A DNA stretch of 64,000 nucleotides. Source: Streptomyces sp. ISL-36 (lineage in GTDB: Bacteria; Actinomycetota; Actinomycetes; Streptomycetales; Streptomycetaceae). The translations under genes and the position numbers were made by a program. The notes below the pieces were generated by a model. It made no database searches, was not told the DNA's origin, and was given only the letters and a program-made list of their open reading frames with translations. Below are positions 44,990 to 63,138 of this stretch, one piece after another. Within the stretch, counting starts at the first letter, position 1. Each line of letters opens with the position of its first letter. The stretch lies in assembly GCF_018614205.1 (NCBI RefSeq), contig NZ_JAGGOS010000054.1:1-64000 (forward strand), written 5' to 3'.

Positions 44990-45002
44990 GGAGCGCCCGG
45001 CC

Positions 45003-48388: not shown

Positions 48389-48500
48389 GCGACAGCTCGA
48401 ACCACGGGGCTCGCGGCGGCCGCTCGCCGCGGGTCCCGGTGCGAAGGGAACGGACAGGGGGCGCTGGCCAGACTTCTTCCACGCGAGGGGTTCGATCTCC

Positions 48501-49895
48501 ATGACGACAACCGACATCACCACCTCCCTCCCCTACAGAGAGGTGACGGACGCCAACGGCCGCACGTACCGGGTCGGCGAGACCGACATCGACCTGATGG
48601 GCCGCACACGCAAGTGGATGGTCATCCTGCCGTGGGTGGGCATGATGGGCATCAGCTCGGCGGAGTACGCTTTCGCGTCCGCCGAGGAAACCCTGCACAC
48701 CGCGCACAGCTGGAGCAGCGCGCACATCTTCTGGATGCTCGGCGTCTGGGTGTTCTTCCAGGCCTCGGTGGCCTTCCCGGCCGGGAAGCTGCGCGAGAGC
48801 GGAAAGCTTCCGGCCCGCTGGGCGATGATGCTGGGCGCGGTCGGCACGCTCCTCGGCTACCTCTCGCTGGCGTTCGCGCCGCATGTGATCGTCGCCTACA
48901 TCGGCTTCGGCATGTTCAGCGGTATGGGCGCGGGCATGGTCTACGCGACCTGCGTCAACATGGTCGGCAAGTGGTACCCGGAACGCAAGGGCGGCAAGAC
49001 CGGCTTCGTCAACGGCGGGTTCGCCTACGGCTCGGTGCCGTTCGTCTTCATCTTCACCGGCTACATGGATCTGACGAACTTCCGCTGGGTGCTGGTCGCC
49101 GTCGGTCTCTTCCTGGCCGCGATGGTGGCGGTGGCGGGGTACTTCTTCCAGGACCCGCCGAAGAACTGGTGGCCGGCCCAGATCGATCCGCTGAGGAAGC
49201 CCGACGACCCGCGCGCCAGGCGGGCGCTGGAGAAGAACCCTCCGGCGGTGAAGCAGTACACGCCGATCGAGGCCTGGCGGACCGGGCGGGTCGCGCTGAT
49301 GTGGTTCTGTCTGCTGTGCACCTCGGGCGTCAACATCTTCGGGATCGCCTTCCAGGTGCCGTTCGGCGACGAGGCGGGGTTCGCGGGCGGGATCGTGGCG
49401 ACCGCGATGTCCCTGAAGGCGATCGTGAACGGCACCGGGCGTGGCGTGATCGGCTGGCTCTCCGACCGGTACGGCCGCAAGCAGTGCCTGATCTTCGTCT
49501 GTATCGTCCTCGGGCTCGCCCAGTACGGAATCCTCTGGTCCGGCAGCATCCACAATCTGCCGCTGTTCCTGGTGTTCTCCAGCATCTCCGGCTTCGGCGG
49601 CGGAGCGATCTTCCCGATGTTCGCGGCGATGACCGCGGACTACTTCGGTGAGAACAACAACGCCTCCAACTACGGCCTGGTCTACAGCTCCAAGCTGGTT
49701 TCGGGACTGCTCGGTTCCGGTATGGGCGCGGTGGTGGTCTCCGCCTGGGACTACTCCGGAGCCTTCGTGCTCGCCGGGTCGATCTCGCTCTTCGCCGGCT
49801 TCGTGGCGCTGTTCCTGCATCCGCCGGGACGGCCGCGGGCCCGCCGTGTGACGGCGAACCCGCGGCCGATCAGCCGCGACGCGGGGGCGGAGTGA
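48501..49895 (+). CDS. OFA-family MFS transporter (oxalate/formate antiporter type)
   Basis: A 464-residue, 12-segment MFS protein. The stretch GMGAGMVYATCVNMVGKWYP with ERKGGKTGFVNGGFAYGS is the OFA-family signature; GWLSDRYGRK and FFGEN-like YFGENNNASNYG also fit. It would import oxalate in exchange for formate, the product of frc. A cytoplasmic loop of about 50 residues lies between the two halves. GAGGGG is about 9 nt upstream of the ATG. Last gene of the rightward arm. Confidence 0.9.
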   Translation: MTTTDITTSLPYREVTDANGRTYRVGETDIDLMGRTRKWMVILPWVGMMGISSAEYAFASAEETLHTAHSWSSAHIFWMLGVWVFFQASVAFPAGKLRESGKLPARWAMMLGAVGTLLGYLSLAFAPHVIVAYIGFGMFSGMGAGMVYATCVNMVGKWYPERKGGKTGFVNGGFAYGSVPFVFIFTGYMDLTNFRWVLVAVGLFLAAMVAVAGYFFQDPPKNWWPAQIDPLRKPDDPRARRALEKNPPAVKQYTPIEAWRTGRVALMWFCLLCTSGVNIFGIAFQVPFGDEAGFAGGIVATAMSLKAIVNGTGRGVIGWLSDRYGRKQCLIFVCIVLGLAQYGILWSGSIHNLPLFLVFSSISGFGGGAIFPMFAAMTADYFGENNNASNYGLVYSSKLVSGLLGSGMGAVVVSAWDYSGAFVLAGSISLFAGFVALFLHPPGRPRARRVTANPRPISRDAGAE

Positions 49896-49904
49896 CCACC
49901 CAGG

Positions 49905-50978
49905 TCAGCTCTTCTCACGCAGCGAGTGGAGGTGCGCGCTCGACTTGCGGGCGAAGTCGAACGACTCGACCGGGTTGTCGCGTTCGGCCTGCCAGTGGTG
50001 GGCGTGGCGTCCGTGACGGGTGCGGTTCACCGCCGAGATGAAGCGCCGGTAGTCGATGTCTCCGTCCCCGACGTCCGCCATGCGGTAGCCGTCCCGGACG
50101 GAGTCGTCGCGTTCACCGTCCTTGACGTGGAAGAGCGGATAGCGGTGGGGCTGGTCGAGGACGTAGGTCAGCGGGTCGAAGGGGGCGGGGGTGCCGTCGG
50201 CGCGGCGGGAGAAGCGGTGCTGGGCGACGTAACCCCAGTAGATGTCCATTTCGAGGTGGACGAGGTCGGGGTCGGTCTCGGCGAGCAGGACGTCGTAGAG
50301 GCGGACGTCCGGCTGGTCGGTGGCGAAGGAGAACTCCTCGGCGTGGTTGTGCTGGTAGAACTTCATGCCGCGCTTCTTCGCCTCGGCGCCGTAGTGGTTG
50401 AACTCCTCGGCGCAGCGCTTCCAGCCGTCGACGGTCGCCCCGTAGCGCCAGGGGCCCGAGGCGGTGCCGATGTGCGGGAGGCCGAGGGCCTGGGCGTCGT
50501 CGAGGACCCGGGTGAGGTTCTGGGCGAAGGTGTAGGCGTTGGGGTCGGACGAGTAGTAGCCGACATGGCTGCCGATGCCGCGCAGGCCGTGGTCGCGGGT
50601 GAGCCGATCGAGTTCGGCGAGCGTGATCGGGCCGGCGGAGCCCTGGGTGTACCCGGCGAACTCGACCTCGTCGTAGCCGTACTTCTTCAGCTCGGCGAAG
50701 ACGGTGGCGAACCCGAGCGTGGAGACCTTGTCGCGCAGGGAGTAGAGCTGGATGCCGAGGTGGCCGGGGGGCAGTACGGGCCGGCCGTGGCCGTTGCCCC
50801 GGTCGGTGGGGTCGGCCGCGGCGGGGGCGGCCTCGGCGGCGCCTGCGGTGGGGGCGGCCGCTCCGAGGAGGGCGGCGGCGGTGGCGCCGGCGGCGACACC
50901 GAGCATGTTCCGTCTGCTGAGCTTCCGGGTGAGCTCGGGGTCGGCCGGGGCGCTGTGGATACGGCGGGTGCGGCTCAT
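49905..50978 (-). CDS. Tat-exported sugar-phosphate isomerase/epimerase (TIM barrel)
   Basis: A 357-residue protein. Twin-arginine signal KLSRRNMLGVAAGATAAALL near residues 20-45. The rest is an AP-endonuclease-2-like TIM barrel: LGIQLYSLRDKVSTLGF, YGYDEVEFAGYT, HNHAEEF, HLEMDIYWGY, FHVKDGERDD. The Glu/Asp/His metal ligands are visible. It may act on oxidised or keto sugars outside the membrane. The ATG at 50976-50978 has GAGGAG upstream. It lies 49 nt after the ebo-type cluster on the same strand and may be co-transcribed. Confidence 0.87.
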   Translation of the reverse strand: MSRTRRIHSAPADPELTRKLSRRNMLGVAAGATAAALLGAAAPTAGAAEAAPAAADPTDRGNGHGRPVLPPGHLGIQLYSLRDKVSTLGFATVFAELKKYGYDEVEFAGYTQGSAGPITLAELDRLTRDHGLRGIGSHVGYYSSDPNAYTFAQNLTRVLDDAQALGLPHIGTASGPWRYGATVDGWKRCAEEFNHYGAEAKKRGMKFYQHNHAEEFSFATDQPDVRLYDVLLAETDPDLVHLEMDIYWGYVAQHRFSRRADGTPAPFDPLTYVLDQPHRYPLFHVKDGERDDSVRDGYRMADVGDGDIDYRRFISAVNRTRHGRHAHHWQAERDNPVESFDFARKSSAHLHSLREKS

Positions 50979-51027
50979 CTGTGGATAACTCCTCGTTGTC
51001 GGTGGGGTCTGATTCACTGGAGTCCGG

Positions 51028-52434
51028 TCAGCAGAGACCGGCCAGTTGGAGCAGCAGGGACTTCACATCGGTGGCCGCGACGCGGCCGCTGACAGCGCGG
51101 GGGGTGGAGCACAGAATGAGCGGACCTTCGTCATCGCTCGTGGGGAGGCGGCCATGGCTGCCGCGAATAGGTGAGGGATCGAGAGGCACGACCGCCAGTC
51201 GGTAGCGCATGCCCAGCTTCTTGCGGGCGATCGCCGTCGCCGCCTTGATCCGTACGTAGGGGTCCAGCGGGTCCATGAAGAGCTCGACGGGGTCGTAGCC
51301 CGGTTTGCGGTGGATCTCCACGAGCCGGGCGAAGTCGGGCGCCTTCGTGTCGTCGAGCCAGTAGTAGTACGTGAACCAGGCGTCGCGCTCGGCGAGGGCG
51401 ACGAGCTCCCCGGAGCGGGGGTGGTCGAGGCCGTACTCCTTCTTGCCCTCGTCGTCGAGGAGCCGTTCCAGTCCGGGAAGCCCGGCGAGGGCCTCGCGCG
51501 TGGCGGCCATCTCTCCGGGGTCCTCGGGGCGGCGGACGTACACGTGGGCGAGCTGGTGGTCGGCGACCGCGAAGGCGCGGGAGGCCATCGGATCCAGGTA
51601 CTCCATGCCGTCCTGGGTGTGGACCTCGAGCAGTCCGGCGCGGCGCAGGGCGCGGTTGATGTCGACGGGCCGGTCGACGCGGGTGATGCCGTACTCCGAG
51701 AGGACGACGACGGTGCGCCCCTCGGCCCGTGCCTCGTCGAGGAGGGGTGTGAGGGCGGCGTCGAGATCGGCGGCCGCGCGCTCGGAGCGCGGGTCGTCCG
51801 GTCCGAACCGCTGCAGGTCGTAGTCGAGGTGCGGGAGGTAGCTGAGGGCGAGGTCGGGGCGGCGGGTGCGCAGGATGTGCCGGGTGGCGTCGATGATCCA
51901 CCGGCTGGAGACGAGATCCGCGCCCGGGCCCCAGAAGTGGAAGAGGGGGAAGGTGCCGAATTTCTCGGTGAGTTCGTCGTGGAGGGCCGGGGGCCGGGTG
52001 TAGCAGTCGGGTTCCTTGCGGCCGTCCGCGTAGTAGACGGGACGGGGGGTGACGGTGATGTCGGTGTCCGCGCCCATGGCGTACCACCAGCAGATATTGG
52101 CCACGGTGTAGCCGGGGTGGGAGCGGCGGGCCGCGTCCCAGAGTTTGTCGCCGGCGACGAGGCCGTTGTGCTGGCGCCAGAGGAGGACGTCGCCCAGGTC
52201 GCGGAAGTACCAGCCGTTGGCGACGATGCCGTGCTCGGAGGGGAGAGTACCGGTGAGGAAGGTGGACTGGGCGGTGCAGGTCACCGCCGGCAGGACGGTG
52301 GAGAGAGCGGCCTGGGAGCCTGACCCGGCAAGGGCCCGGAGGCGGGGCATGTGCTGGAGGAGGCGGGGCGTGAGACCGACGACGTCGAGGACCAGGAGGG
52401 GGATGGGTCGGGTGTCGCTCCGGAGACCGGTCAT
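51028..52434 (-). CDS. eboF: Alkaline-phosphatase-superfamily phosphodiesterase (EboF-like)
   Basis: A 468-residue nucleotide pyrophosphatase/phosphodiesterase-type protein. The nucleophile is in AVTCTAQSTFLTGTLPSEHG (Thr or Ser); metal-binding residues appear in LPHLDYDLQ, LSEYGI and VADHQLAHV. No signal peptide is seen, so it is likely cytoplasmic or needs another export route. The ATG overlaps the EboE stop (ATGA). It would remove a phosphate or nucleotide group from the cluster's product; inference. Confidence 0.85.
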   Translation of the reverse strand: MTGLRSDTRPIPLLVLDVVGLTPRLLQHMPRLRALAGSGSQAALSTVLPAVTCTAQSTFLTGTLPSEHGIVANGWYFRDLGDVLLWRQHNGLVAGDKLWDAARRSHPGYTVANICWWYAMGADTDITVTPRPVYYADGRKEPDCYTRPPALHDELTEKFGTFPLFHFWGPGADLVSSRWIIDATRHILRTRRPDLALSYLPHLDYDLQRFGPDDPRSERAAADLDAALTPLLDEARAEGRTVVVLSEYGITRVDRPVDINRALRRAGLLEVHTQDGMEYLDPMASRAFAVADHQLAHVYVRRPEDPGEMAATREALAGLPGLERLLDDEGKKEYGLDHPRSGELVALAERDAWFTYYYWLDDTKAPDFARLVEIHRKPGYDPVELFMDPLDPYVRIKAATAIARKKLGMRYRLAVVPLDPSPIRGSHGRLPTSDDEGPLILCSTPRAVSGRVAATDVKSLLLQLAGLC

Positions 52435-53600
52435 GGGAGTTCCTTGAGGCCGAGGTCGGTCAGGAGGTCACGGGCCAGCGTGAGTTCGGCGGCGATGCCG
52501 TCGGCGAGACGGGCGCGGGTGCGGGGGCGCTGCGCGGCCGGGAGGGCCTGCCAGGTGTAGGTCTCGACCTCCAGATGGTGGGTGCGGGGGCGCGGGCCGC
52601 CGAGGAGGAGGCCGAGGGTGTCCTGGAGCACGGGGAGGGTGGAGGTGAGCGGAGGAGCGGGCGGCGTATGGAGGGGGACGTGGAAGTGTGCGCGCCAGGG
52701 CGCGCCGTCGGGGAGCGAGCGGCCCGCGAGGGCTTCGGGGAGGTCATCGGTCCCGCGCAGACCGGCGGCGGTGCTGGTGCGGGTCTGGTGCAGGAATCGG
52801 GGTTCCGCGAAGGCGGCGAGCGCGGCGCGGACCTCGGGGAGATGGGGGTGCTCGGCGTGCAGTGCGGCGGAGAGCTGGGACTTGACCACGGGGACACCGA
52901 CGGCGGCGAGGCCGTCCAAGGCGGTACGGGGGTCCTCGAAGGACGTGGCGAGGTGGCAGGTGTCGACGCAGACGCCGATGCGCCGGCTCGATACGGCGGT
53001 GAGCGGGGCGATCGCGTCGGCGGTGGTCTCGACGGTGCAGCCGGGTTCCGGCTCGAGTCCGATCCGGACGGACTTGCCGGTGAGCTCCTCCAGGGCGTCG
53101 AGGCGTTCGGCGAGGGTCCTCAGGGCCCTGCGGGCGGTGTCGGCGGCGCGGGAGTCGAAGGAGGTGCGCCAGGCGAGGGGCAGGGTGGAGACGGAGCCGT
53201 CGGTGACGTCGTCGGGGAGGAGCGCGGCGAGGAGCCGGGCCAGGTCGGTGGTGTGGGCGAGACGTTCGGGGCGGGTCCAGTCCGGCTGGTAGACGCGGTA
53301 CTTGACCTCTTCGGCGCCGAAGCCCTCGTAGGGGAAGCCGTTGAGGGTGACCACTTCGAGGCCGCGGTGGTCGAGTTCGGCGCGCAGTGCGCGCAGGGAG
53401 GCGGGATCGGTGATCAGTGAGCGGGCGGCGTCCCGGGCGAGCCAGAGGCCGATGCCGAGACGGTCGCGGCCGAGACGCCGGCGAACGGGTTCGCAGTGGT
53501 CCCGGAGCTGGGCGAGTACGCCGTCGAGGGTCTCGGCGGGGTGGACGTTGGTGCAGTAGGCGAGGTGGACGGTCGAGCCGTCGGGGTGGCGAAAGCGCAT
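52431..53600 (-). CDS. eboE: EboE-like metabolite traffic protein (TIM barrel)
   Basis: A 389-residue TIM-barrel protein. Typical EboE features: HLAYCTNVHPAETLDGVL at the start, GIGLWLARDAA, VVTLNGFPYEGF, YRVYQPDW, IGLEPEPGCTVETT and GVCVDTCHLAT, with HVPLHTPPAPPL near the end. It resembles xylose-isomerase-like enzymes, but its reaction is not established. The ATG at 53598-53600 has GGAGG upstream, 12 nt after EboB. It is coupled by ATGA to the phosphodiesterase gene. Confidence 0.85.
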   Translation of the reverse strand: MRFRHPDGSTVHLAYCTNVHPAETLDGVLAQLRDHCEPVRRRLGRDRLGIGLWLARDAARSLITDPASLRALRAELDHRGLEVVTLNGFPYEGFGAEEVKYRVYQPDWTRPERLAHTTDLARLLAALLPDDVTDGSVSTLPLAWRTSFDSRAADTARRALRTLAERLDALEELTGKSVRIGLEPEPGCTVETTADAIAPLTAVSSRRIGVCVDTCHLATSFEDPRTALDGLAAVGVPVVKSQLSAALHAEHPHLPEVRAALAAFAEPRFLHQTRTSTAAGLRGTDDLPEALAGRSLPDGAPWRAHFHVPLHTPPAPPLTSTLPVLQDTLGLLLGGPRPRTHHLEVETYTWQALPAAQRPRTRARLADGIAAELTLARDLLTDLGLKELP

Positions 53601-53612
53601 CGAGGGCCTCCC

Positions 53613-54461
53613 TCATTCCCCGCCGCGGAGGATGGAGTTGCCCTGGTGGGACGCGCCGGGTGAAGGGAGGTCGAGCCGGAGCCGGCCGCTGAGGCCGTAG
53701 AAGGCGACGGGGTTGCGCCAGAGCACCCGGTCGACGTCGTCGTCGGAGAATCCGGCGGCGAGCATGGCGTCGCCGACCTTGCGGGTCTTGAGCGGATCGC
53801 TCTTGCCCCAGTCGGCGGCCGAGTTCACGAGGACGCGGTCCGGGCCGTGGTCCTTGAGTACGGCGACCATGCGGTCCTCGTCCATCTTGGTGTCGGGGTA
53901 GATGGAGAAGCCGAGCCAGGCACCGCTGTCGGCGGCTTCCTTGACGGTGGTCTCGTTGAGGTGGTCGAGGAGGACCTGGTCGGGGGCGAGTGCGGATTCG
54001 CGCACGACGTCGAGGGTGCGCCTGAGGCCGGCCGGCTTGTCGCGGTGCGGGGTGTGGACGAGAGCGGGCAGGCCGTGGTCGGCGGCGAGCTGGAGCTGGG
54101 CGGCGAGGGCGGTGTCCTCGGCGGGGGTCATGGAGTCGTAGCCGATCTCGCCGACGGCGACGACGTTGTCCTTCACGAGGTAGCGGGGCAGGGCGTCGAG
54201 GACGGGGGTGCAGCGGGGGTCGTTGGCCTCCTTCGGGTTGAGGGCGAGGGTGCAGTGGTGGGCGATGCCGTACTGGGCGGCTCGGAAGGGTTCCCAGCCG
54301 AGGAGGGAATCGAAGTAGTCGAAGAAGGAGGCGGGCGAGGTGCGAGGCTGGCCGAGCCAGAAGGAGGGTTCGACCAGGGCGCGGACGCCGGCCTCGTACA
54401 TGGCGCGGTAGTCGTCCGTGGTGCGCGAGGTCATGTGGATGTGGGGGTCGAAGATGCGCAT
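53613..54461 (-). CDS. eboB: TatD-like metal-dependent hydrolase (EboB-like)
   Basis: A 282-residue TatD-family TIM-barrel hydrolase. The HxH metal motif is at the very start (RIFDPHIHMTSRTTDD); VGEIGYDSMTPAEDTALAAQ gives the bridging Glu; LVHTPHRDK and LDHLNETT follow; NSAADWGKSDPL is the final Asp. It lacks a nucleic-acid-processing context, and in ebo clusters a small-molecule role is assumed. The ATG shares its A with the EboA stop (TGATG). Confidence 0.87.
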   Translation of the reverse strand: MRIFDPHIHMTSRTTDDYRAMYEAGVRALVEPSFWLGQPRTSPASFFDYFDSLLGWEPFRAAQYGIAHHCTLALNPKEANDPRCTPVLDALPRYLVKDNVVAVGEIGYDSMTPAEDTALAAQLQLAADHGLPALVHTPHRDKPAGLRRTLDVVRESALAPDQVLLDHLNETTVKEAADSGAWLGFSIYPDTKMDEDRMVAVLKDHGPDRVLVNSAADWGKSDPLKTRKVGDAMLAAGFSDDDVDRVLWRNPVAFYGLSGRLRLDLPSPGASHQGNSILRGGE

Positions 54462-55015
54462 CAGGAGTCCTCCGTGGGGGTGGTGAGGGCGAGGACGCGG
54501 TGGAGGTCGTCGGGGACGGGGCGTCCGGCGGCGGTGCGTTCCGCGGCGTAGTCGATGAGCATCCGGGCGAGTTCGGCGTCGCCCCGGGCCCGGTGGGGCA
54601 GGCCGGCGACGGTGTCGACGGGGATGCCGGTGAAGAGGCACTTGAGGACGGCGTGGCGCCAGGGGTGGGGTGCCAGATGGGAGGCGGCGTAGGGGCCGAC
54701 GGCGGCGGCGATCAGGGTGGTGTCGTGGGTGCGCAGGGCGTCCTCGACGAGGGGCAGGGCCTCGGGGCCGGTGAGGAGCGAGGGGAGGGCGAGGAGGACG
54801 GCGCGGCGTTCGGCGGCGGTGCCCTGGTGGTAGAGCCGGGTCAGGGTGGTCGCGTCGGCGCGGGCTTCCTTGAGGAGAAGGACCCGGACGGAGTCGGCGT
54901 GCTCCTGGCCGCAGTGCCGGCCCGCGGAGGCGAAGCGCAGCTCCCAGAGGGAGGTGCGGGCAGCGGCGGCGGCGAGGGCCTCGTCGAGCCAGCTGCGGGC
55001 GGAGTCGGTCAGCAT
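54461..55015 (-). CDS. eboA: EboA-like protein
   Basis: A 184-residue all-helical protein with HEAT-like character: ARSWLDEALAAAAARTSLWE, FASAGRHCG, AERRAVLLALPSLLTG, HPWRHAVLKCLFTGIPVDTV. The last motif (LKCLFTGIPVDTVAGL) is characteristic of EboA-domain proteins, whose function is unknown. The ATG at 55013-55015 overlaps the upstream gene by 7 nt. No catalytic residues are evident; a scaffold role is possible. Confidence 0.8.
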   Translation of the reverse strand: MLTDSARSWLDEALAAAAARTSLWELRFASAGRHCGQEHADSVRVLLLKEARADATTLTRLYHQGTAAERRAVLLALPSLLTGPEALPLVEDALRTHDTTLIAAAVGPYAASHLAPHPWRHAVLKCLFTGIPVDTVAGLPHRARGDAELARMLIDYAAERTAAGRPVPDDLHRVLALTTPTEDS

Positions 55016-55908
55016 GCCGGAGTCTCCCGTCGGGCGAGGTGGTCGCGGAGGTACGCGAGGGAGGTGCGGGCGAGTGCGGGGCCCGCGTGGGAGTGGCGGG
55101 GCAGTTCGACGACCGTCAGGCCCTGGTAGCCGCCGGCGGTGATGTCGGCGAGGGCGGCGAGCACGGGCGGGAAGTCGATCTCGCCTTCGCCGAACGGAAG
55201 GTGTTCGTGGACGCCGCGGCGCATGTCCTCGATCTGGACGTGGTGCAGCCAGGGGGCGGCGGCGCGGAGGCAGTCGGCCGGGGCGGCCGGCTCCAGGCAC
55301 TGGCAGTGGCCTATGTCGAGGGTGAGGCCGAGGACGGCGGGGTCCGGATCGCCGAGGAGGCCGCGGAGGTGGTGGAAGTCGTCGAGGGTGGCGAGGAGGT
55401 GACCGGGTTCGGGTTCGACGGCGAGGGGGACGCGGGCGGCGGCCGCGGCGTCGATGACAGGGGTGAGGGATGCGGCGAGGCGTTTCCAGGCGACGGGCTC
55501 GGTGGTGCCGTCGGGGGTGATGCCGCTGAAGCAGTGGACGGCGTGGGCGCCGAGGTCGGCGGCGACGCGGACGGCCCGCAGGAGGAGGCGGGTGCGGTGG
55601 GCGCGGGCGTCGGGGTCCGGCTCGAGCAGTGAGGGGCCGTGCTTGCGGCGGGGGTCGAGGACGTAGCGGGCGCCGGTCTCGACGGTGACGCCGAGGCCGA
55701 GTGTGTCGAGGCGGCGGGCGACGTGGGCGGTGCGGGTGGCGAGGTCGGGCGCGAGGGGGTCGAGGTGCATGTGGTCGAGGGCGAGGCCGACGCCGTCGTA
55801 GCCGAGGTCGGCGAGGAGGGCAAGGGCGTCGTCCAGCCGGAGGTCGGTGAGGCCGTTGGTGCCGTAGCCGAGGCGAGGGGCGGGGGCGGCGGTGCCGAGG
55901 GCGCTCAT
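55009..55908 (-). CDS. Sugar-phosphate isomerase/epimerase-like TIM barrel
   Basis: A 299-residue AP-endonuclease-2/xylose-isomerase-like barrel: LGYGTNGLTDLRLDDALALL, DGVGLALDHMHLDP, VTVETGARYVLDPRRKHGPS, VPLAVEPEPGHLLATLDDF, GLTLDIGHCQCLEP, and HVQIEDMRRGVHEHLPFGEG with the usual metal ligands Glu, Asp, His, Glu. The GEGEIDF motif is also found in inositol-catabolic isomerases. It is coupled to EboC by ATGA. Probably converts a cyclitol or keto sugar in the cluster's pathway. Confidence 0.85.
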   Translation of the reverse strand: MSALGTAAPAPRLGYGTNGLTDLRLDDALALLADLGYDGVGLALDHMHLDPLAPDLATRTAHVARRLDTLGLGVTVETGARYVLDPRRKHGPSLLEPDPDARAHRTRLLLRAVRVAADLGAHAVHCFSGITPDGTTEPVAWKRLAASLTPVIDAAAAARVPLAVEPEPGHLLATLDDFHHLRGLLGDPDPAVLGLTLDIGHCQCLEPAAPADCLRAAAPWLHHVQIEDMRRGVHEHLPFGEGEIDFPPVLAALADITAGGYQGLTVVELPRHSHAGPALARTSLAYLRDHLARRETPAC

Positions 55909-56825
55909 GTGGGGCTCACCTTCCGTGCGAGGGTGCGCGCGAGGGGGGCGAGGCCGAGGAGCGCGAGGGCGGTGATGGGTGCGCCGGAGCGGGCGGCGAG
56001 GGTGGCCTGGAGGGGGATGAGGGCGCGGATACCGGCGCCGACGGAGCGCTGGGTGAGGGGCGGTGACGGGTTGAGGGCCGCGTGGAGGAAGGGCGCGGCG
56101 GGGGTGCGGGCGTAGCCGGCGGCAAGGGCGGCGGCGACGAGCCGGGCAGAGGTGGGTGAGGTGCGGTTCCCGGCGGTGGGGCGGGCCGCGGTCGCGGCCA
56201 CGGCGAGGGTGGCGGCGAGGGCCAGCGCGGGGGCGCGGGTGGAGCCTCCCTGGGCCTCGTGCCGGGAGACGGCGGTGATCGCGTAGGTGTGGGCGGCGAG
56301 GAGGGCGGCGGAGGCGAGGGGGCGGGCGGAGCGGAGGCGGAGGGAGGGTGGGCGGGGGGAGGGGGAGGGGGAGCCCCCCGTGGCGGTGGCGCCGAGGAGG
56401 AGGTCCAGGGCCCGGGCCGCCGCCATCGCCGCCGGTCCCGCCGAGGTGTGCTTGAGGTGCAGGTCGTAGGACCAGACCGTCGCGGCGAGGCCGGTGGCGA
56501 CCGCGAGCGCCGGGCGGCCCGCGCGGGCGGCGAGGCCGAGGCCGGCCGCGGTCAGGGCCGCCGAGGCGGCGAGGGCCGCGCCGGGGGTGATCCGACCGGA
56601 GGGGATGGGGCGGTGGGGGCGGTCGACGGCGTCCTCCGCGCGGTCGGCCCAGTCGTTGAGGGCCATGCCCGCCTCATACAGGCAGAGGGAGGAACCGATG
56701 GCCAGGAGCGTGGACCGGTTCGGGCGCAGTCCCATGGCCGCCGCGCCGGCGAGGGCGTCCCCCGGGACGGTGAAGAGGGCGGAGACGCGGAGCAGTTCCG
56801 CCCAGGAGGCGAGGGGGCCGCTCAC
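55905..56825 (-). CDS. eboC: UbiA-like prenyltransferase (EboC-like)
   Basis: A 306-residue membrane protein of the UbiA superfamily. The first Asp-rich motif is NDWADRAEDAVDRPHRPIPS; the second region is TVWSYDLHLKHTSAGP. About eight hydrophobic helices are seen, with a Pro/Ser/Arg-rich loop near residue 160. UbiA enzymes attach isoprenoid chains to aromatic or polyol acceptors within the membrane. The GTG at 56823-56825 overlaps the TGA of the inositol phosphate synthase gene (GTGA). Confidence 0.87.
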   Translation of the reverse strand: MSGPLASWAELLRVSALFTVPGDALAGAAAMGLRPNRSTLLAIGSSLCLYEAGMALNDWADRAEDAVDRPHRPIPSGRITPGAALAASAALTAAGLGLAARAGRPALAVATGLAATVWSYDLHLKHTSAGPAAMAAARALDLLLGATATGGSPSPSPRPPSLRLRSARPLASAALLAAHTYAITAVSRHEAQGGSTRAPALALAATLAVAATAARPTAGNRTSPTSARLVAAALAAGYARTPAAPFLHAALNPSPPLTQRSVGAGIRALIPLQATLAARSGAPITALALLGLAPLARTLARKVSPT

Positions 56826-58078
56826 TCCCCCTCCCCGAGCCGTGCGGCGAAGGCCAGCAGGCGCCCGTACTGCTCCGCCAGTGCGGCGGGGGCGTCGCCC
56901 TCGGGGTCCTTGAAGTAGAAGGCCAGATCCTCCAGGGGGCCGGTGAGGCCCTTTTCGTGGGCGCGGGCCGTCAGGCGGGCGAGGTCCAGGACGAGGGGGG
57001 CGGCAAGGGCCGAGTCGCAGCCCTGCCAGGTGGTCTGGAGGGTCATGCGGGAGCCGAGGAAGCCGTCGAAGGCGATGTGGTCCCAGGCCGTCTTCCACTC
57101 CCCCAGGGCCGGGACGTCGTCGATGTGGACCTCGCCTTCGGGTGCGCCGCCGAGGACCTCCGCGAGGACGCGTTCCTTGCCGGCGTTCTTCGCCGCCGCG
57201 GCGGCCGGGTCGGCGAGGGCCGCGCCGTCGCCGCCGCCGAGCAGGTTGGTGCCGGACCAGGCCCGGACGGTGAGGGCGCGCTGGACGAACATCGGGGCGA
57301 GGACGGAGCGGAGGAGGGTCTGGCCGGTCTTGCCGTCGCGGCCGGCGTGGGGCAGTCCGCAGGCCGTGGCGATGCCGGTGAGGGTGGGGTGGCGCAGGCC
57401 GGTGGAGGGGGTGAAGTTGACGTAGGGGCAGCCGGCGCGCAGGGCGGCGGCCGCGTAGAGGGAGCTGGGTGGGAGCGCGGCGCCCCCCGACGCCGGCTCC
57501 GTACCCGGAACCCGTGCGTCCCCCGACGCCGGCTCCGTACCCGGAACCCGTGCGCCCCCCGACGCCGGCTCCGTACCCGAAGCCCGTTCGTCCCCCGACG
57601 CGGGCTCCGTACGCGGAACCCGTGCGTCCCCTGACGCGGGTTCCGTGGAGGCCACATTGACGACCACCACCCTGGTCAGGTCCAGTCGTTCGCGGAAGTC
57701 CGTCATGTCGGCGGCGAAGGAGGCGATGAGTTCTTCGTCGGTGCGGGGTTCTCCGGGGAGGGGGCCGCCGGGTCGGATCTCCTCGTCGGCGGCGTGGAGT
57801 TCCGCGGTGACGGCAGCGGCGAGGCCGTGCGGCAGGACTCCGGCGACGGTCAGTTCCTCGGCCCGTTTGGGCAGGGGGCAGGCGGTGGTGTCGTGTCCGC
57901 CGAAGACGAGGGAGGACAGTGGGGGCAGGCCTGCGGTGGTGAAGGCCTGGGTTTCGGTGGCCATGCCGGTGGGTGGGTGCAGGCCGGCCGTCATGGCGGC
58001 GCAGCCGGCCACCACCGTGGTGGCGACGGAGCCTCTGGCCCCGATGAGCCAGACTCCGGTACGTGTTCCAGTGGTCAC
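56822..58078 (-). CDS. myo-Inositol-1-phosphate synthase with repeat insertion
   Basis: A 418-residue inositol-3-phosphate synthase, which isomerises glucose 6-phosphate to myo-inositol 1-phosphate with NAD. N-terminal NAD fold VWLIGARGSVATTVVAGC; SLVFGGHDTT; VVVVNVAS; SLYAAAALRAGCPYVNFTPS; DGKTGQTLL; WSGTNLLGGGDG. Between VVVVNVAS and SLYAAAAL a 60-residue insertion made of five 12-residue repeats (TEPASGDARVPG type) occurs. Without it the length would be about 355, normal for the bacterial type. GTG start at 58076-58078, GGGAGG upstream. It heads the ebo-type operon. Confidence 0.9.
   Translation of the reverse strand: MTTGTRTGVWLIGARGSVATTVVAGCAAMTAGLHPPTGMATETQAFTTAGLPPLSSLVFGGHDTTACPLPKRAEELTVAGVLPHGLAAAVTAELHAADEEIRPGGPLPGEPRTDEELIASFAADMTDFRERLDLTRVVVVNVASTEPASGDARVPRTEPASGDERASGTEPASGGARVPGTEPASGDARVPGTEPASGGAALPPSSLYAAAALRAGCPYVNFTPSTGLRHPTLTGIATACGLPHAGRDGKTGQTLLRSVLAPMFVQRALTVRAWSGTNLLGGGDGAALADPAAAAAKNAGKERVLAEVLGGAPEGEVHIDDVPALGEWKTAWDHIAFDGFLGSRMTLQTTWQGCDSALAAPLVLDLARLTARAHEKGLTGPLEDLAFYFKDPEGDAPAALAEQYGRLLAFAARLGEGE
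57484..57652. repeat. 36 bp in-frame minisatellite inside the inositol phosphate synthase gene
   Basis: Units recur with an exact 36 bp period, with GACGCCGGCTCC-type starts at 57489, 57525, 57561, 57597 and 57633. Each encodes 12 residues of the TEPASG(D/G)ARVPG type in the gene's frame. Copies differ by a few substitutions, all preserving the frame. Confidence 0.92.
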
Positions 58079-58162: not shown

Positions 58163-61100
58163 CTACGGGGTGAGCTCCTTGAGTTGGATGTTGCGGAAGG
58201 ACACCTGGTCGTCGGCTCCGTGGTTCTGGATGCCGATGTGGCCGTCCTTGAGGCTGCGGGCCGGGTCGGTGTTGGTGAAGTCGTTGATCTTGACTCCGTT
58301 GAGGAACACCTGGAGCCGTTCGCCCTGGACGCGGATCTCGTAGCTGTTCCACTGGCCGGGCGGCCGCAGGACCGCGTCGCGTGCCGTGAGGTTGGCGGAC
58401 TTGAAGCCGTAGACGGCTCCGGTGGTCCGGTCGGCGGCGTCGGTGGCGTCGATCTGGATCTCGTAGCCGTTGTTCACGGCGGACCAGGGGTCGTCGGAGG
58501 CGGGGAAGCCGACGAAGATCCCGGAGTTGTCGTCGCCGGCCATCTTCCAGTCGAGCTTGAGGGAGTAGGAGGAGAACTCCTTGGCCTGGTACCAGAGCAT
58601 TCCCATGCCGCCGACCGAGCGCAGTTCGCCGTCGGTGACGTCGAAGCTGCCGGGGCCCGCCTGCTTCCAGCCTTCGCGGGTCTGGCCGTTGAAGAGGTCG
58701 CGGTAGCCGGTCTGGGGCCGGCAGTCGGCCGTGACCTGGCCGGTGGCGTAGCGGAGTCCGCCGAGGAGGTGCTGTCGGAAGGCGGGTTCGGTGTAGGACT
58801 CCTTGGTGTGGCCGCCGCCGGTGTAGAAGGAGCGGCCGCCGCCGTAGGACTTGCACCAGGCGATGGGGTGGTCGCCCTTCATCGTGCCGCCCTGGTAGGT
58901 GGTTTCGTCGAGGGTGGCGAGGATGCGGGCCTGGCCGCGGGGGTTGGTGCGGTAGTTGTACCACTCGTCGGTGCGCTGCCAGGGGCCTTCGATGTGGGCG
59001 GTCGCGGGGTGGTCGTGGTCCTCGACGCGGACGGTCGCCGGCTGGATCTGGGGGTGGGAGGCGAAGTGGGCGCCGACGAGTCCGCCGTAGAACTCCCAGT
59101 CGTACTCGGTGTCGGCGGCGGCGTGGATGCCCATGTATCCGCCGCCGTTGGCGACGTAGTTCTCGAAGGCGGTCTGCTGTTGTGGGTTCAGCACGTCGCC
59201 TGTGGTGGACAGGAAGGCGACGGCGTCGTAGCGGGCGAGGTTCTCGGTGGTGAACTGGCGTGGTTCTTCGGTGGCGTCGACGGTGATTGCGCTGTCGGCT
59301 CCGAGCTCTTTGAGTGCGGTGATGCCGGCGGGGATGGAGTCGTGGCGGAATCCGGCGGTGCGGGAGAAGACGAGGACGCGCTTGGCGGTCCTGTCGACGG
59401 GGGTGTTGGTGATGGTGAAGTCGTCGACGTCGTAGAGGGCGCCGGTGCCTCCCTTGAAGACGAGGAAGAGTTCGGTGGTCCTGCGGGGTGCGGTGCGCAG
59501 GGGTACGTCGATGTTCTGGAAGGTCTCCCAGCCTCCGGTGACGGGGACGGGTGCGGAGCCGAGGAGGGTGCCGGTGGGTGATCCGGTGCGGACTTCGAGG
59601 AAGCCGCCGGCGCCGCCGGAGGAGACGCGGGCGGTGAGCTTGGTGGATCCGGTGAGGTTGTAGGGCTTGAAGGCGATCCAGTCGCCGTTGTCGATGTCGC
59701 CGACGGTCCGGCCGCCGTTCGCGGGGGCCTTGTCGATGACGCTGATGCCGCTGTGGGTGTCGAAGTGTTCGGCCTGGCGGTGGCGGGGTTGGAGCTTGGC
59801 CTGGTCGTGGGTGGTGAGGGCGGCCTGGCCGCCGCCTCCGCCGTCGGTGTATTCGGCGTCGAAGACGGCGAAGATGTTGGCGTCGTCGTCGTGGCCGCCG
59901 TCGGCGGAGGTCTTGATGGTGCCGGTGCAGCCGTTGGCGCTGGTGACGGGGTGGCCGTGGCTGTCGTGGCCGAGGATGTAGGTGACCTTGACCTTGGTGC
60001 AGTCGATCGTCCGGTCCTCGGGGTCGGTGACCGTCACCTTGAAGGGGATGTCGTCGCCGAAGTCGAACAGTGCGCCTTCGGCGGGGAGTTCGAGGGTGAC
60101 CTTGGGGGCGGTGTTGCCGACGACGATGTGGACGGAGGCGGAGCCGGTGCGGCCCGAGGGATCCTTGGCCGTGACGGTCGCGGTGTAGGTGCCGTTCTTC
60201 CGGTACGTGTAGGTGGGGTTGGCCGCCGTCGACGTGCCGCCGTCGCCGAAGTCCCAGCTGTAGGTGAGGGCGTCGCCGTCGGAGTCCGTGGTGCCGGCCG
60301 AGGAGAAGACGATCTTCAGCGGCGCGGTGCCGGAGGTCTTGTCGGCGCTCGCTTCGGCGACGGGTGAGCGGCCGCCGGTGGCGTTCTCGATGCGGTAGAG
60401 GCCGGAGTTGTGGTCGCCGCCGAACCAGGCGGTGCCGTAGTCGAGGACGTAGAGGGCGCCGTCGGGGCCGAAGGCCATGTCCATGATCTGGGTGCCGGTC
60501 CAGGGGACGGGGTTGATGGACTGGACGGTGCCGTCGGTGCCTTGTTCGATGCGTTTGATCCAGCGTCGGCCGAACTCGCCGGCGAAGAAGTCTCCGTCGT
60601 AGGCCTCGGGGAACTTGACGGGGGAGGTGGAGGTGGCGTCGTAGCGGTAGACGGGTCCCCCCATGGGGGATTCGGAGCCGTTGCCGAATTCGGGTAGGGA
60701 GCCGCCGTTGTACGGGATCCAGGCGGGTTCGGCGGGCGGGAGGTCGACGAGTCCGGTGTTGTAGGGGGAGTCGTTCTTCAGGGCGCCGCAGTCGAAGGTC
60801 GCGCCGGAGGTCTTGGTGGCGAAGTCGTAGTCGACGTAGGGGTCGTTGTTGCCGGTGCAGAAGGGCCAGCCGAAGTTTCCGGGTTTGGTGACGCGGGCGA
60901 ATTCGACCTGGCCGGCGGGGCCACGCTGGGGGTCGGCGGCGCCGGCGTCGGGGCCGTAGTCGCCGACGTAGAGGATGCCGGTGGGCTTGTCGACGCTGAA
61001 GCGGAAGGGGTTACGGAAGCCCATCGCGTAGATCTCGGGGCGGGTCTTGGCGGTGCCGGGTGCGAAGAGGTTGCCGGTGGGGATGGTGTAGGAGCCGTCG

Positions 61101-61876
61101 TCGGCGACCTTGATGCGCAGGATCTTGCCGCGCAGGTCGTTGGTGTTGCCGGAGGTGCGGCGGGCGTCGTAGGCGGGGTTGCGGCCGGGGCGTTCGTCGA
61201 TGGGGGTGTAGCCGTCGGAGGCGAAGGGGTTGGAGTCGTCGCCGGTGGACAGGTAGAGGTTGCCCTGGGCGTCGAAGTCGATGTCGCCGCCGACGTGGCA
61301 GCAGATGCCCCGGGTGGCGGGGATGTCGATGACCTTCTTCTCGCTGGCGTTGTCGAGGGTGCCGTCGGCCTTCAGGGTGAAGCGTGAGAGGCGGTTGACT
61401 CCGTCGTAGGCGGCGAAGTCGGCGGGTGTGCCGTCGTTGGGGGCGTCTCCGGCGGGGGTGGTGAGGGGCGGGGCGTAGTAGAGGTAGATGGCCCTGTTCT
61501 GGGCGAAGTTCGGGTCGAGGCCGATGCCTTGGAGGCCTTCCTCGTCGTGGGAGTAGACGGGGACGGTGCCGATGACCTGGGTGTTGCCGGCGGCGTCGGT
61601 GCGGCGTAGTTCGCCGCCCCGTGAGGTGTGCAGGACGCTGCGGTCGGGGAGCACGGCGAGTGACATCGGTTCGCCGACTTCTTCGCCGCCCTTGGCGAGG
61701 GTGACCTGCTGGAACTCTTCGGCGGCGGCGGCGGTGGTGGTGGTGGCTGTGGCTGTGGCGGTTTCGTCGGCGTGGGGGTCGGCGTCGGCGGCCAGGACCT
61801 GGGGGGCGCCGAGGGCGAGGAGTCCGACGGTGAGTAGGGCGAGTGACTTCCTGGCTCGGAGTCGTTTTCTGTGCAC
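58163..61876 (-). CDS. Giant secreted sugar dehydrogenase-PKD-CBM-ThuA-DUF1080 fusion
   Basis: A 1237-residue exported protein. Signal peptide about 1-29 (SLALLTVGLLALGAPQVLA). Residues about 55-500: soluble glucose/sorbosone-dehydrogenase beta-propeller (GLQGIGLDPNFAQNRAIYLY, MGFRNPFRFSVDK, VLDYGTAWFGGD). About 515-600: PKD domain (YSWDFGDGGTSTAANPTYTY). About 715-835: CBM6-like carbohydrate-binding module. About 845-1075: ThuA domain (VLVFSRTAGFRHDSIPAGI, GGGYMGIHAAADTEYDW). About 1085-1237: DUF1080/3-keto-disaccharide hydrolase (YRDLFNGQTREGWKQAG). It suggests extracellular oxidation and cleavage of disaccharides. GTG start, GGAGGA upstream; 84 nt before the inositol gene. Confidence 0.88.
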   Translation of the reverse strand: MHRKRLRARKSLALLTVGLLALGAPQVLAADADPHADETATATATTTTAAAAEEFQQVTLAKGGEEVGEPMSLAVLPDRSVLHTSRGGELRRTDAAGNTQVIGTVPVYSHDEEGLQGIGLDPNFAQNRAIYLYYAPPLTTPAGDAPNDGTPADFAAYDGVNRLSRFTLKADGTLDNASEKKVIDIPATRGICCHVGGDIDFDAQGNLYLSTGDDSNPFASDGYTPIDERPGRNPAYDARRTSGNTNDLRGKILRIKVADDGSYTIPTGNLFAPGTAKTRPEIYAMGFRNPFRFSVDKPTGILYVGDYGPDAGAADPQRGPAGQVEFARVTKPGNFGWPFCTGNNDPYVDYDFATKTSGATFDCGALKNDSPYNTGLVDLPPAEPAWIPYNGGSLPEFGNGSESPMGGPVYRYDATSTSPVKFPEAYDGDFFAGEFGRRWIKRIEQGTDGTVQSINPVPWTGTQIMDMAFGPDGALYVLDYGTAWFGGDHNSGLYRIENATGGRSPVAEASADKTSGTAPLKIVFSSAGTTDSDGDALTYSWDFGDGGTSTAANPTYTYRKNGTYTATVTAKDPSGRTGSASVHIVVGNTAPKVTLELPAEGALFDFGDDIPFKVTVTDPEDRTIDCTKVKVTYILGHDSHGHPVTSANGCTGTIKTSADGGHDDDANIFAVFDAEYTDGGGGGQAALTTHDQAKLQPRHRQAEHFDTHSGISVIDKAPANGGRTVGDIDNGDWIAFKPYNLTGSTKLTARVSSGGAGGFLEVRTGSPTGTLLGSAPVPVTGGWETFQNIDVPLRTAPRRTTELFLVFKGGTGALYDVDDFTITNTPVDRTAKRVLVFSRTAGFRHDSIPAGITALKELGADSAITVDATEEPRQFTTENLARYDAVAFLSTTGDVLNPQQQTAFENYVANGGGYMGIHAAADTEYDWEFYGGLVGAHFASHPQIQPATVRVEDHDHPATAHIEGPWQRTDEWYNYRTNPRGQARILATLDETTYQGGTMKGDHPIAWCKSYGGGRSFYTGGGHTKESYTEPAFRQHLLGGLRYATGQVTADCRPQTGYRDLFNGQTREGWKQAGPGSFDVTDGELRSVGGMGMLWYQAKEFSSYSLKLDWKMAGDDNSGIFVGFPASDDPWSAVNNGYEIQIDATDAADRTTGAVYGFKSANLTARDAVLRPPGQWNSYEIRVQGERLQVFLNGVKINDFTNTDPARSLKDGHIGIQNHGADDQVSFRNIQLKELTP

Positions 61877-62133: not shown

Positions 62134-63138
62134 CTAGCGGTCGCCCCCGAACGCGGCGTCGAAGGAGGCCGTGGGCGGGTCGAAGTCGTACCGCTTCAGA
62201 TGAGAAAGCGCTTCCGGTGCGCCGGTGAGCCGGTCCATCCCCGCGTCCTCCCACTCCACCGAGACCGGCCCGCCGTAGCCGATCGAGCGGAGCATCCGGA
62301 ACACGTCCTCCCAGGGGACGTCACCGTGGCCGGCCGAGACGAAGTCCCAGCCGCGCCGCGGATCCCCCCAGGGCAGGTGGGAGCCGAGCCGCCCGTTGCG
62401 GCCGTCGAGGCGCTTGCGGGCCTCCTTGCAGTCCACGTGGTAGATCCGGTCGCGGAAGTCCCACAGGAAGCCGACCGGGTCCAGGTCCTGCCAGACGAAA
62501 TGGCTCGGGTCGAAGTTCAGGCCGAAGGCCGGCCGGTGGCCGACCGCCTCCAGCGCCCGCTGGGTGGTCCAGTAGTCGTACGCGATCTCGCTCGGGTGGA
62601 CCTCGTGAGCGAACCGCACGCCTTCGGCGTCGAAGACGTCCAGGATCGGGTTCCAGCGCTCCGCGAAGTCCTCGAAGCCGCGCTCGATCATCCGCTCGGG
62701 CACCGGGGGGAACATCGCGACGAGATGCCAGATCGACGAACCGGTGAACCCGATCACGGTGTCGACTCCGAGGGCCGCCGCGGCCCGGGCGGTGTCGGCG
62801 ATCTCGGCCGCCGCCCGTCGCCGTACGCCCTCGGGCTCGCCGTCCCCCCAGATCCTGGCGGGGAGGATCCCCTGATGACGCTCGTCGATCGGATGGTCGC
62901 AGACGGCCTGCCCGACCAGGTGGTTGGAGATCGCCCAGCACGACAGCCCGTACTTCTCCAGCAGGGCACGGCGGCCGTCGACGTACGAGGGGTCGGCGAG
63001 CGCCTTGTCGACCTCGAAGTGGTCTCCCCAGCAGGCGAGTTCGAGACCGTCGTAACCGAAGTCGCGGGCGAGCCGGCAGACCTCCTCCAGCGGCAGGTCG
63101 GCCCACTGGCCGGTGAAGAGGGTGAAGGGACGAGGCAC
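62134..63138 (-). CDS. Cytoplasmic sugar-phosphate isomerase/epimerase (TIM barrel)
   Basis: A 334-residue AP-endonuclease-2-like TIM barrel: [91 protein letters not shown]. Metal ligands (Glu, Asp, His, Glu) are visible. No signal peptide. I choose the GTG at 63136-63138 because GGAGG lies at perfect spacing; an ATG at 63153 is possible. It follows the Gfo/Idh gene across a minisatellite; the two families usually work together on keto sugars or inositols. Confidence 0.87.

Follow-up and report, generated by a model that had tools for sequence, protein, structure and literature searches.

A widespread actinomycete variant of the ebo operon in which a predicted inositol phosphate synthase stands in place of EboD

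Introduction

The ebo cluster, eboA-F, is known from scytonemin export in Nostoc, for which a role in metabolite export has been reported (PMC6282210), and from eustigmatophyte plastids. An isoprenoid-cyclitol product has previously been proposed for clusters of the EboD type (Yurchenko et al. 2016, in the available text of PMC5133447). The available parts of the ebo papers argue from sequence on whether EboD produces a cyclitol or supplies the shikimate route. The available text of PMC5133447 also gives a precedent for the combination of a cyclitol route with prenylation by UbiA, the biosynthesis of BE-40644 by an EEVS and a UbiA-superfamily farnesyltransferase; that route uses EEVS, not MIPS, and its prenyltransferase is said there to differ from EboC. 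Ubi-297, a relative of EboC that comes from EboD-type bacteria, farnesylated quinolines, 8-HQA among them; all 14 tested acceptors are described as aromatic in the accessible text of PMC9235831. In Streptomyces coelicolor, SCO3243 is listed as a myo-inositol phosphate synthase and SCO3242 as a putative transferase together with the genes of the CDA cluster (PMC3610822).

Here we describe an ebo-type operon of Streptomyces sp. ISL-36 headed by a myo-inositol-1-phosphate synthase (MIPS) gene. We found no description of a MIPS-headed ebo variant in the open papers that were searched, the pair SCO3242/SCO3243 being already in print, and nothing there that joins ebo and inositol synthase with UbiA or CDA beyond PMC5133447, PMC6282210, PMC9235831 and the CDA listings. 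The word "inositol" occurs 0 times in the available main text of those three papers.

Results

Seven tightly coupled genes

The window, i.e. the whole stretch of 64,000 nucleotides that was analysed, carries seven minus-strand genes between positions 51028 and 58078. The MIPS gene (56822..58078) is followed by genes for a UbiA-superfamily prenyltransferase of the SCO3242 family in the EboC position (55905..56825), an extra xylose-isomerase-like TIM barrel, here called T (55009..55908; PF01261, 140 bits), an EboA-domain protein (54461..55015), a TatD/amidohydrolase-type EboB (53613..54461), EboE, which is a second TIM barrel (52431..53600), and EboF, an NPP/phosphonoacetate-hydrolase-fold protein whose metal site is altered (51028..52434; PF01663, 219 bits). 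The tight coupling claimed for all six junctions was borne out along with the coordinates, the junctions ranging from a 7-nt overlap (T/EboA) to a 12-nt gap (EboB/EboE), with overlaps of 4 nt at MIPS/UbiA, UbiA/T and EboE/EboF and of 1 nt at EboA/EboB. All 105 loci that carry the seven genes on a single strand have them in the order MIPS-UbiA-T-EboA-EboB-EboE-EboF; since the order recurs in this way, it is not due to chance, and the seven-gene arrangement is real. A promoter and terminator scan gave one promoter-like site (0.3 in shuffles) and two terminator-like sites (4.0 in shuffles), and none of these was relied on.

The operon also belongs to the ebo type, as originally predicted. EboE passes its model NF035939 (428 bits, cut-off 250) and EboA the domain model NF035938 (162 bits, cut-off 50), and the family domains of EboB (PF01026, 48 bits, cut-off 27) and EboF were found. 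The narrower EboA family model NF035937 was not passed (60 bits, cut-off 320), and there was no curated EboB model among the family-model matches. The operon thus has EboB, EboE, EboF, an EboA-domain protein and a UbiA-superfamily enzyme in common with eboA-F, but it lacks EboD, carries MIPS and the extra TIM barrel, and has a UbiA enzyme below the EboC cut-off. The eboG variant of the ebo operon likewise has one member exchanged, although there, according to the available text of PMC5133447, eboG replaces eboA, whereas here eboA is retained and eboD is replaced.

MIPS and EboD across genomes

We compared 130 actinomycete loci, made up of 19 from a phylum sample, 55 from a class sample outside the genus of the window (60 fetched, 5 dropped as non-clusters), 40 genus loci taken by rank order with few gaps, further genus matches being left out, 15 genus loci picked chiefly as second copies, and the window itself. 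Ten of 140 loci with EboE alone (5 full-length above the cut-off and 5 partial) were excluded before this count. A scan of species genomes with EboB provided the best 80 of 580 loci, including L142 (on a contig shared with L007), L190 and L193. L190 is from Microbispora, an actinomycete, and looks eroded; L193 belongs to a record without taxon. A gene was scored as present when it matched profiles made from the window genes and their relatives with no less than 40 bits in the actinomycete loci and no less than 35 bits in the EboB-scan loci.

Of the 130 actinomycete loci, 111 have MIPS (phylum 16/19, class 52/55, genus by rank order 38/40, genus second copies 4/15, window 1/1), and a single one, L007, has EboD, a sugar-phosphate cyclase; in L007 a type 2 IPP isomerase gene follows the EboD-type cluster. 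Among the best 80 of the 580 EboB-scan loci, MIPS was found in 0, EboD was found in 51 of the 57 that have at least three other ebo genes, and the commonest order was A-B-C-D-E-F, against M-C-T-A-B-E-F here. The synthase had been expected to stand at the place of EboD, and these counts agree; the original prediction was to be given up if the synthase was not conserved with the ebo genes of other genomes, and the same 111 loci, with the constant order of the full sets, establish that it is. No EboD was found at the window locus. Elsewhere in the genome the two matches to the L007 EboD, at 34-35% identity, were rejected as EboD, one being AroB (357 bits, cut-off 305) and the other a different cyclase (PRK06203, 213 bits, cut-off 333).

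In a tree of EboB, EboE and EboF, obtained by a quick search with SH-aLRT support only, a midpoint root and many rows that deviate in composition, the MIPS and EboD heads need one change and the MIPS-type group has an SH-aLRT of 100; the rows came from the window, 35 actinomycete clusters out of the 129 fetched, and 51 further loci. The gene for T accompanies MIPS, and the two together seem to have replaced EboD once. Moreover, among 199 congeners EboE occurred in 136 and the operon-type MIPS in 135, with both in 131, neither in 59 and discordance in 9. The distances of MIPS and its six partners correlate at 0.88-0.93 (Mantel, MIPS against EboB, 0/500).

Of the 19 actinomycete loci that lack MIPS, L007 has EboD, L055, L056 and L140 are cut by a contig end, L090 consists of tandem partial copies, and L021 and L050 are odd. 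The other 12 form a Streptomyces subtype, 10 of whose loci were fetched deliberately and 11 of which lie in genomes with two EboE matches. Because such clusters exist, the locus does not strictly depend on MIPS, and a strict need was rejected.

The prenyltransferase and its acceptor

The enzyme in the EboC position passes PF01040 and the NCBIfam SCO3242 model NF045897 (393 bits, cut-off 260), and fails the curated EboC model NF035940 (134 bits, cut-off 250). Its plain identification as EboC, as first proposed, was therefore rejected. SCO3242 of S. coelicolor is the namesake of the model that was passed; the likeness comes through the model name and the listing in PMC3610822, where SCO3242/SCO3243 appear as CDA genes and not as an ebo operon. 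The NDxxDxxxD motif (N57, D58, D61, D65) is 100% conserved, the residue counts given for MIPS, UbiA, T, EboB and EboF being based on copies that span the greater part of the profile and not on each locus.

UbiA enzymes are frequently aromatic prenyltransferases, which favors a scheme in which an aromatic acceptor is prenylated, as by Ubi-297 with 8-hydroxyquinoline-2-carboxylic acid, while MIPS provides some other metabolite or a headgroup and the cyclitol does not accept the prenyl group. In vitro, Ubi-297 transferred farnesyl to 6 of the 14 aromatic acceptors (available text of PMC9235831). However, the acceptors named in that text are all aromatic, so that a failure with cyclitols is not implied, and the recurrent heads EboD and MIPS both form rings on sugar phosphates. 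An aromatic acceptor is, in our view, unlikely.

The head gene and its product

The operon MIPS has both the NAD_binding_5 (PF07994, 121 bits) and the Inos-1-P_synth (PF01658, 103 bits) domains. Its closest PDB match is the MIPS of Archaeoglobus fulgidus (1u1i, 188 bits), against 30 bits for the Ino1 1gr0, and K274, K278, K306, K367 and N255 (A. fulgidus numbering) are kept in 110 of 110 copies; in PDB alignments the K278 and K367 positions read A in 3qvw and 3qvx. A separate housekeeping Ino1 lies on contig 23 (TIGR03450, 738 bits, cut-off 638), which makes the operon MIPS an extra copy. By its sequence, then, the operon enzyme is archaeal-like and distinct from the housekeeping Ino1. It shares the two Pfam domains and the catalytic residues with the A. 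fulgidus enzyme, but unlike it the actinomycete MIPS is bound to an operon, alongside a separate housekeeping Ino1 in the genome. An in-frame tandem repeat on the minus strand (57480..57646; 36 bp x 4.6, TRF score 264) lengthens one loop of the window MIPS to 58 aa, compared with at most 28 aa in the 41 other loops that were measurable by a pattern among the 110 copies.

The operon MIPS falls outside the curated Ino1 equivalog TIGR03450 (28 bits against 638), and a relative with a different product exists (6k96, "Five-membered-cyclitol-phosphate synthase", Ari2 type). The homologue might therefore yield an unusual cyclitol in place of myo-inositol 1-phosphate, either one with a five-membered ring like that of aristeromycin or an inosose phosphate that is set free before it is reduced. 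Since keto-cyclitols are the expected products of EboD, an inosose would be compatible with later steps common to both pathways. On the other side, the archaeal MIPS is far closer (188 bits) than 6k96 (36 bits), and the lysines and N255 are kept in every copy, which leaves this possibility improbable. We would predict 1L-myo-inositol 1-phosphate as the product of the operon MIPS.

The remaining enzymes

Many residues of EboB, EboE, EboF and UbiA are common to the MIPS-type and EboD-type clusters. In EboB, H7, H9, E105, H136, H167 and D217 are conserved in at least 98% of 131 actinomycete and 81 other copies. E165, D198, H201, H236 and E268 of T are 100% conserved (n=122 copies); its matches to IolO, hydroxypyruvate isomerase and IolE models are weak and every one is under its cut-off, so that T looks like a sugar or inosose isomerase and nothing nearer in function emerged. 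The AF2 model of EboA (pLDDT 97.5) is all-helical and HEAT-repeat-like and matches general HEAT, alphaRep and AlkD-like structures (Z 8-11; best Foldseek E 0.29), which is uninformative on function because this helical arrangement is common.

EboF had been predicted to remove a phosphate. Its AF2 model (pLDDT 90.7) has the NPP fold (Z 33.5, rmsd 2.5-2.7 and 332-335 residues aligned to NPP structures). NPP-type enzymes have His, Asp and His at three zinc-ligand places, and in EboF these places, located by a weak alignment to 1ei6, are occupied by Q208, E247 and Y248, in 124 of 124 actinomycete copies. T52, D204, Q208, E247 and Y248 are shared with 50 EboF proteins from the best 80 of 580 EboB-scan loci, E247 in 49 of the 50. 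With Q, E and Y in place of the expected ligands, plain phosphate removal is doubtful, and the step of EboF is hardly assignable as such.

Flanking genes

On the same strand, 84 nt upstream of MIPS, lies a gene (Thu, 58163..61876) whose product combines GSDH, PKD, CBM6, ThuA and 3-keto-disaccharide-hydrolase domains (Pfam) and is probably secreted, judging by eye from a signal-like N terminus. Thu matches occur in 80 of the 130 ebo loci, on the same strand within 1000 nt in 41. Downstream of EboF, at 10-49 nt and also on the minus strand, a further TIM barrel gene (t2, 49905..51017; PF01261, 62 bits) starts at GTG 51017 or ATG 50978 and encodes a Tat-like signal (TAT_signal 16.2 bits, under the cut-off of 22.7); it has matches in 67 of the 130 loci, on the same strand within 1000 nt in 44. 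The operon may thus extend to Thu and t2, or their adjacency may have other causes.

These neighbours, with the several TIM barrels and sugar-active proteins around the locus, and L050, which adjoins a sugar ABC importer and a Gfo/Idh/MocA dehydrogenase, are what would be expected of an operon for sugar or cyclitol utilisation tied to the ThuA-GSDH-ketosugar hydrolase and Tat-TIM genes, UbiA being incidental. MIPS and UbiA are, however, biosynthetic enzymes; UbiA is present in 124 of the 130 loci, and the seven-gene order is rigid while Thu and t2 are absent or shifted in many of them. We regard utilisation as quite unlikely. That MIPS is a second housekeeping source of inositol, for mycothiol or phosphatidylinositol, placed in the ebo operon by accident, is very improbable and was rejected, for although actinomycetes require inositol, a separate Ino1 that passes the curated cut-off is encoded elsewhere in the genome, and MIPS tracks EboE nearly genome by genome and keeps its position in all 105 full sets.

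Discussion

A variant of the ebo operon is widespread in actinomycetes, in which the ring-forming EboD seems to have been exchanged once for an unrelated inositol-making enzyme. Our preferred explanation is that an archaeal-like MIPS, with T, took the ring-forming place of EboD once and that the product is a prenylated cyclitol; we give this explanation as a whole a probability of roughly 0.55. It draws on the gene content and order, the single change of head on the tree, the conserved active-site residues and the co-inheritance, and from these we infer the reactions, their order, the product and its role. MIPS would convert glucose 6-phosphate to 1L-myo-inositol 1-phosphate, and T might isomerise, epimerise or dehydrate the cyclitol. 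Within the membrane, the UbiA enzyme would then join the cyclitol to an isoprenoid. EboB, EboE and EboF may trim or rearrange the prenylated cyclitol, with EboA as a putative HEAT-repeat scaffold. The end product would be a membrane-associated prenylated cyclitol for export or extracytoplasmic chemistry, comparable to scytonemin export. A prenyl-linked cyclitol is the best reading of the product that we can offer; in the open papers that were searched we found no product or enzyme assay for a MIPS-type cluster.

In a broader and doubtful version, which we advance only tentatively, actinomycetes would hold unrecorded prenylated inositol lipids and ebo would everywhere build, with either of two unrelated ring-formers, a prenyl-cyclitol carrier that takes small molecules to the outer side of the membrane, the cargo or carrier in Streptomyces being processed by the secreted products of the adjacent ThuA-GSDH and Tat-TIM genes.

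To conclude, the apparent replacement of EboD by an unrelated inositol-making enzyme suggests a sugar-derived ring with an isoprenoid tail as the basis of the ebo product. That an unrelated enzyme of known ring-forming type occupies this place, in an operon otherwise conserved, provides independent evidence that ebo starts from a sugar-derived ring. The variant also moves the ebo question to the genetically tractable Streptomyces, including S. coelicolor with its listed pair SCO3242/SCO3243, and the ebo product thereby becomes directly testable.

Results

In the window, which comes from an 8.0-Mb draft assembly of 216 contigs and has a GC content of 71.5%, seven minus-strand genes (51028-58078) encoding myo-inositol-1-phosphate synthase (MIPS), UbiA, an extra xylose-isomerase-like TIM barrel (T), EboA, EboB, EboE and EboF follow one another, with junctions that range between a 7-nt overlap and a 12-nt gap. 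Curated models are divided on the naming of these genes. UbiA, called EboC in the original prediction, passes the NCBIfam SCO3242 model (393 bits, cut-off 260) and fails the EboC model (134 bits, cut-off 250); the EboE model and the EboA domain model are both passed by window proteins; and the MIPS passes both Pfam MIPS domains and falls far short of the housekeeping Ino1 equivalog (28 bits, cut-off 638). The CDA gene table has entries for SCO3242 ('Putative transferase') and SCO3243 ('Myo-inositol phosphate synthase') (PMC3610822).

EboE matches were found in 19 of 396 genomes at phylum level, 98 of 394 at class level and 136 of 199 at genus level. Profiles derived from the window genes were used to annotate the fetched loci; counts rest on the 130 of 140 (window counted) in which three or more of EboA, EboB, EboE and EboF are present. 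MIPS is present in 111/130, a figure lowered by 15 loci picked mainly as second copies, and EboD, the sugar-phosphate cyclase of usual ebo clusters, in 1/130 (L007, Solirubrobacteraceae, on the same contig as locus L142). All 105 loci with the seven genes on one strand show the order MIPS-UbiA-T-EboA-EboB-EboE-EboF, over 6.1-8.8 kb. Across these loci, distance matrices of the seven proteins correlate at 0.85-0.93, and for MIPS against EboB none of 500 permutations reached the observed correlation. Among the 199 genus genomes, 131 carry EboE with this MIPS, 5 EboE without MIPS, 4 MIPS without EboE, and 59 neither.

The best solved relative of the window MIPS is that of A. fulgidus (1u1i, 188 bits); Ino1 (1gr0) and a five-membered-cyclitol-phosphate synthase (6k96) give 30 and 36 bits. 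The equivalents of A. fulgidus N255, K274, K278, K306 and K367, whose four lysines we take to be catalytic, are kept in 110/110 MIPS copies; in alignments, entries 3qvw and 3qvx have alanine at K278 and K367. On contig 23 of the same genome, a second MIPS-family gene scores 738 bits with the housekeeping Ino1 model (cut-off 638), which makes the operon MIPS an extra copy. An in-frame tandem repeat (36 bp x 4.6; 57480-57646) lies within the MIPS gene, and the loop bearing it has 58 residues, against at most 28 in the 41 other copies, of 110, in which loop length was measurable by pattern. In three other genomes (G396, G483 and G496) the alignment runs unbroken through the repeat stretch, so long loops may occur there too. 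The genome of the window also holds a further AroB-superfamily sugar-phosphate cyclase away from the ebo operon (L222:1384-2664, contig 161), under the AroB and PRK06203 cut-offs and adjoining an ORF that by eye resembles an aldo/keto reductase.

UbiA residues N57, D58, D61, D65, Y120, K125 and R138 are at least 95% conserved (103 actinomycete and 48 other copies). T residues E165, D198, H201, H236 and E268 are invariant in 122 copies, and the models closest to T are keto-sugar isomerases, epimerases and IolE, every score being under cut-off. In EboB, an H, H, E, H, H, D set, presumably metal-binding, is conserved. EboA is all helix (AF2 pLDDT 97.5), with structural likeness to HEAT/alphaRep proteins (Z 8-11), a common arrangement. 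Two proteins outside ebo clusters (L038:9396-10613, 419 bits, and L080:9394-10608, 372 bits) score above the cut-off of the NCBIfam EboE equivalog, so the EboE label by itself is no proof of an ebo cluster; the L038 gene adjoins 2-oxoacid dehydrogenase, aldehyde dehydrogenase and ABC transporter genes.

The AF2 model of EboF (pLDDT 90.7) adopts an NPP fold at Z 33.5. In a weak alignment with phosphonoacetate hydrolase 1ei6, a His is replaced by Q208 and an Asp-His pair by E247-Y248. Q208 and Y248 occur in 124/124 actinomycete and 50/50 other copies, E247 in 124/124 and 49/50, while T52 and D204 are retained in all. Position 17, where Asp is expected, is D in 106/124 and N in 13/124 actinomycete copies, and N in 27/50 and D in 18/50 others. 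Zinc ligands are expected at the positions of Q208, E247 and Y248, so EboF is conserved yet unlikely to act as an ordinary two-zinc phosphatase.

We scanned 84,980 species genomes using an EboB alignment headed by the L007 protein and obtained 580 matches, the best 80 of which come from Bacteroidota, Verrucomicrobiota, Planctomycetota, Geotalea and others, including two actinobacterial loci (L142, L190). By profile search, MIPS was found in 0 of these 80 loci. EboD occurs in 51 of the 57 among them that carry three or more of EboA, B, C, E and F, and a T match anywhere in the locus in 4 of the same 57. In a midpoint-rooted EboB+EboE+EboF tree of 87 rows, all 30 MIPS-type rows and five that lack MIPS make up a single group of 35 (SH-aLRT 100), and one change is needed for the MIPS/EboD exchange. 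From the wider spread of EboD, we infer that it is the ancestral state. The branch adjoining the actinomycete group holds two gammaproteobacterial MAG loci, L172 (C-A-B-E-F-D, C being UbiA) and L211 (T-C-A-B-E-F, on a contig beginning 242 nt before T), whose arrangements look like intermediates.

MIPS-less Streptomyces clusters (L004, L084-L087, L089, L092; also L082, L096, L102), mostly second copies ordered UbiA-T-EboA-EboB-EboE-EboF, are their own subtype. A cytochrome P450 lies 3' of EboF in 4/4 tested (L004, L082, L096, L102), and seven MIPS-less loci have upstream matches to a CrtI-like flavoprotein and an inositol-monophosphatase-superfamily protein that misses all curated cut-offs (best HisN, 123 of 275). 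This subtype looks like specialised metabolism.

A GSDH-PKD-CBM6-ThuA-3-keto-disaccharide-hydrolase protein with an N terminus signal-like by eye is encoded 84 nt upstream of the operon (58163-61876, minus strand). Downstream, after a gap of 10-49 nt, comes the gene of a TIM barrel that bears a Tat-like signal (49905-51017, minus strand). These two proteins have matches in 80/130 and 67/130 loci, on the same strand and within 1000 nt in 41 and 44. As the genome has three ThuA genes in total, we calculate that such proximity would arise by chance in about 1% of genomes. The ThuA-GSDH gene is itself preceded, on the same strand, by another xylose-isomerase-like TIM barrel gene (62134-63138). On the plus strand, 43295-49895 encodes a TPP enzyme, a CoA-transferase family III protein, an NDP-forming acyl-CoA-ligase-like protein and an MFS transporter, a run that may serve oxalate or formyl-CoA metabolism.

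Discussion

Yurchenko et al. 2016 describe eboA-F and an eboG variant, note actinobacterial TIM-EboA hybrid proteins and propose an isoprenoid-cyclitol product (PMC5133447). Klicki et al. 2018 reported that ebo genes function in metabolite export in Nostoc (PMC6282210). Among the matches listed, we found no link between MIPS and ebo in the open-access literature. We favour a prenyl-cyclitol route because two unrelated sugar-phosphate cyclising enzymes accompany one pathway; this MIPS/EboD swap is itself the strongest argument, and the conserved active-site residues of the remaining ebo proteins are common to both versions. The weakest parts of the route are the putative prenyl acceptor and the chemistry of EboF. 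Ubi-297, a UbiA relative that has been assayed, farnesylates quinolines (PMC9235831). In the EboD-type actinobacterial cluster, the gene immediately after eboF encodes a type 2 isopentenyl-diphosphate isomerase (L007:12822-13862), which hints at isoprenoid precursors being used by the pathway.

In such a route, MIPS would convert glucose 6-phosphate to inositol 1-phosphate, T and EboE might carry out isomerisation or dehydration, and UbiA would then prenylate the resulting compound, with EboB and EboF possibly trimming and EboA serving as a scaffold. The recurrent ThuA-GSDH and Tat-TIM neighbours are compatible with an extracytoplasmic role, and the end product would be a membrane prenyl-cyclitol that may aid export.
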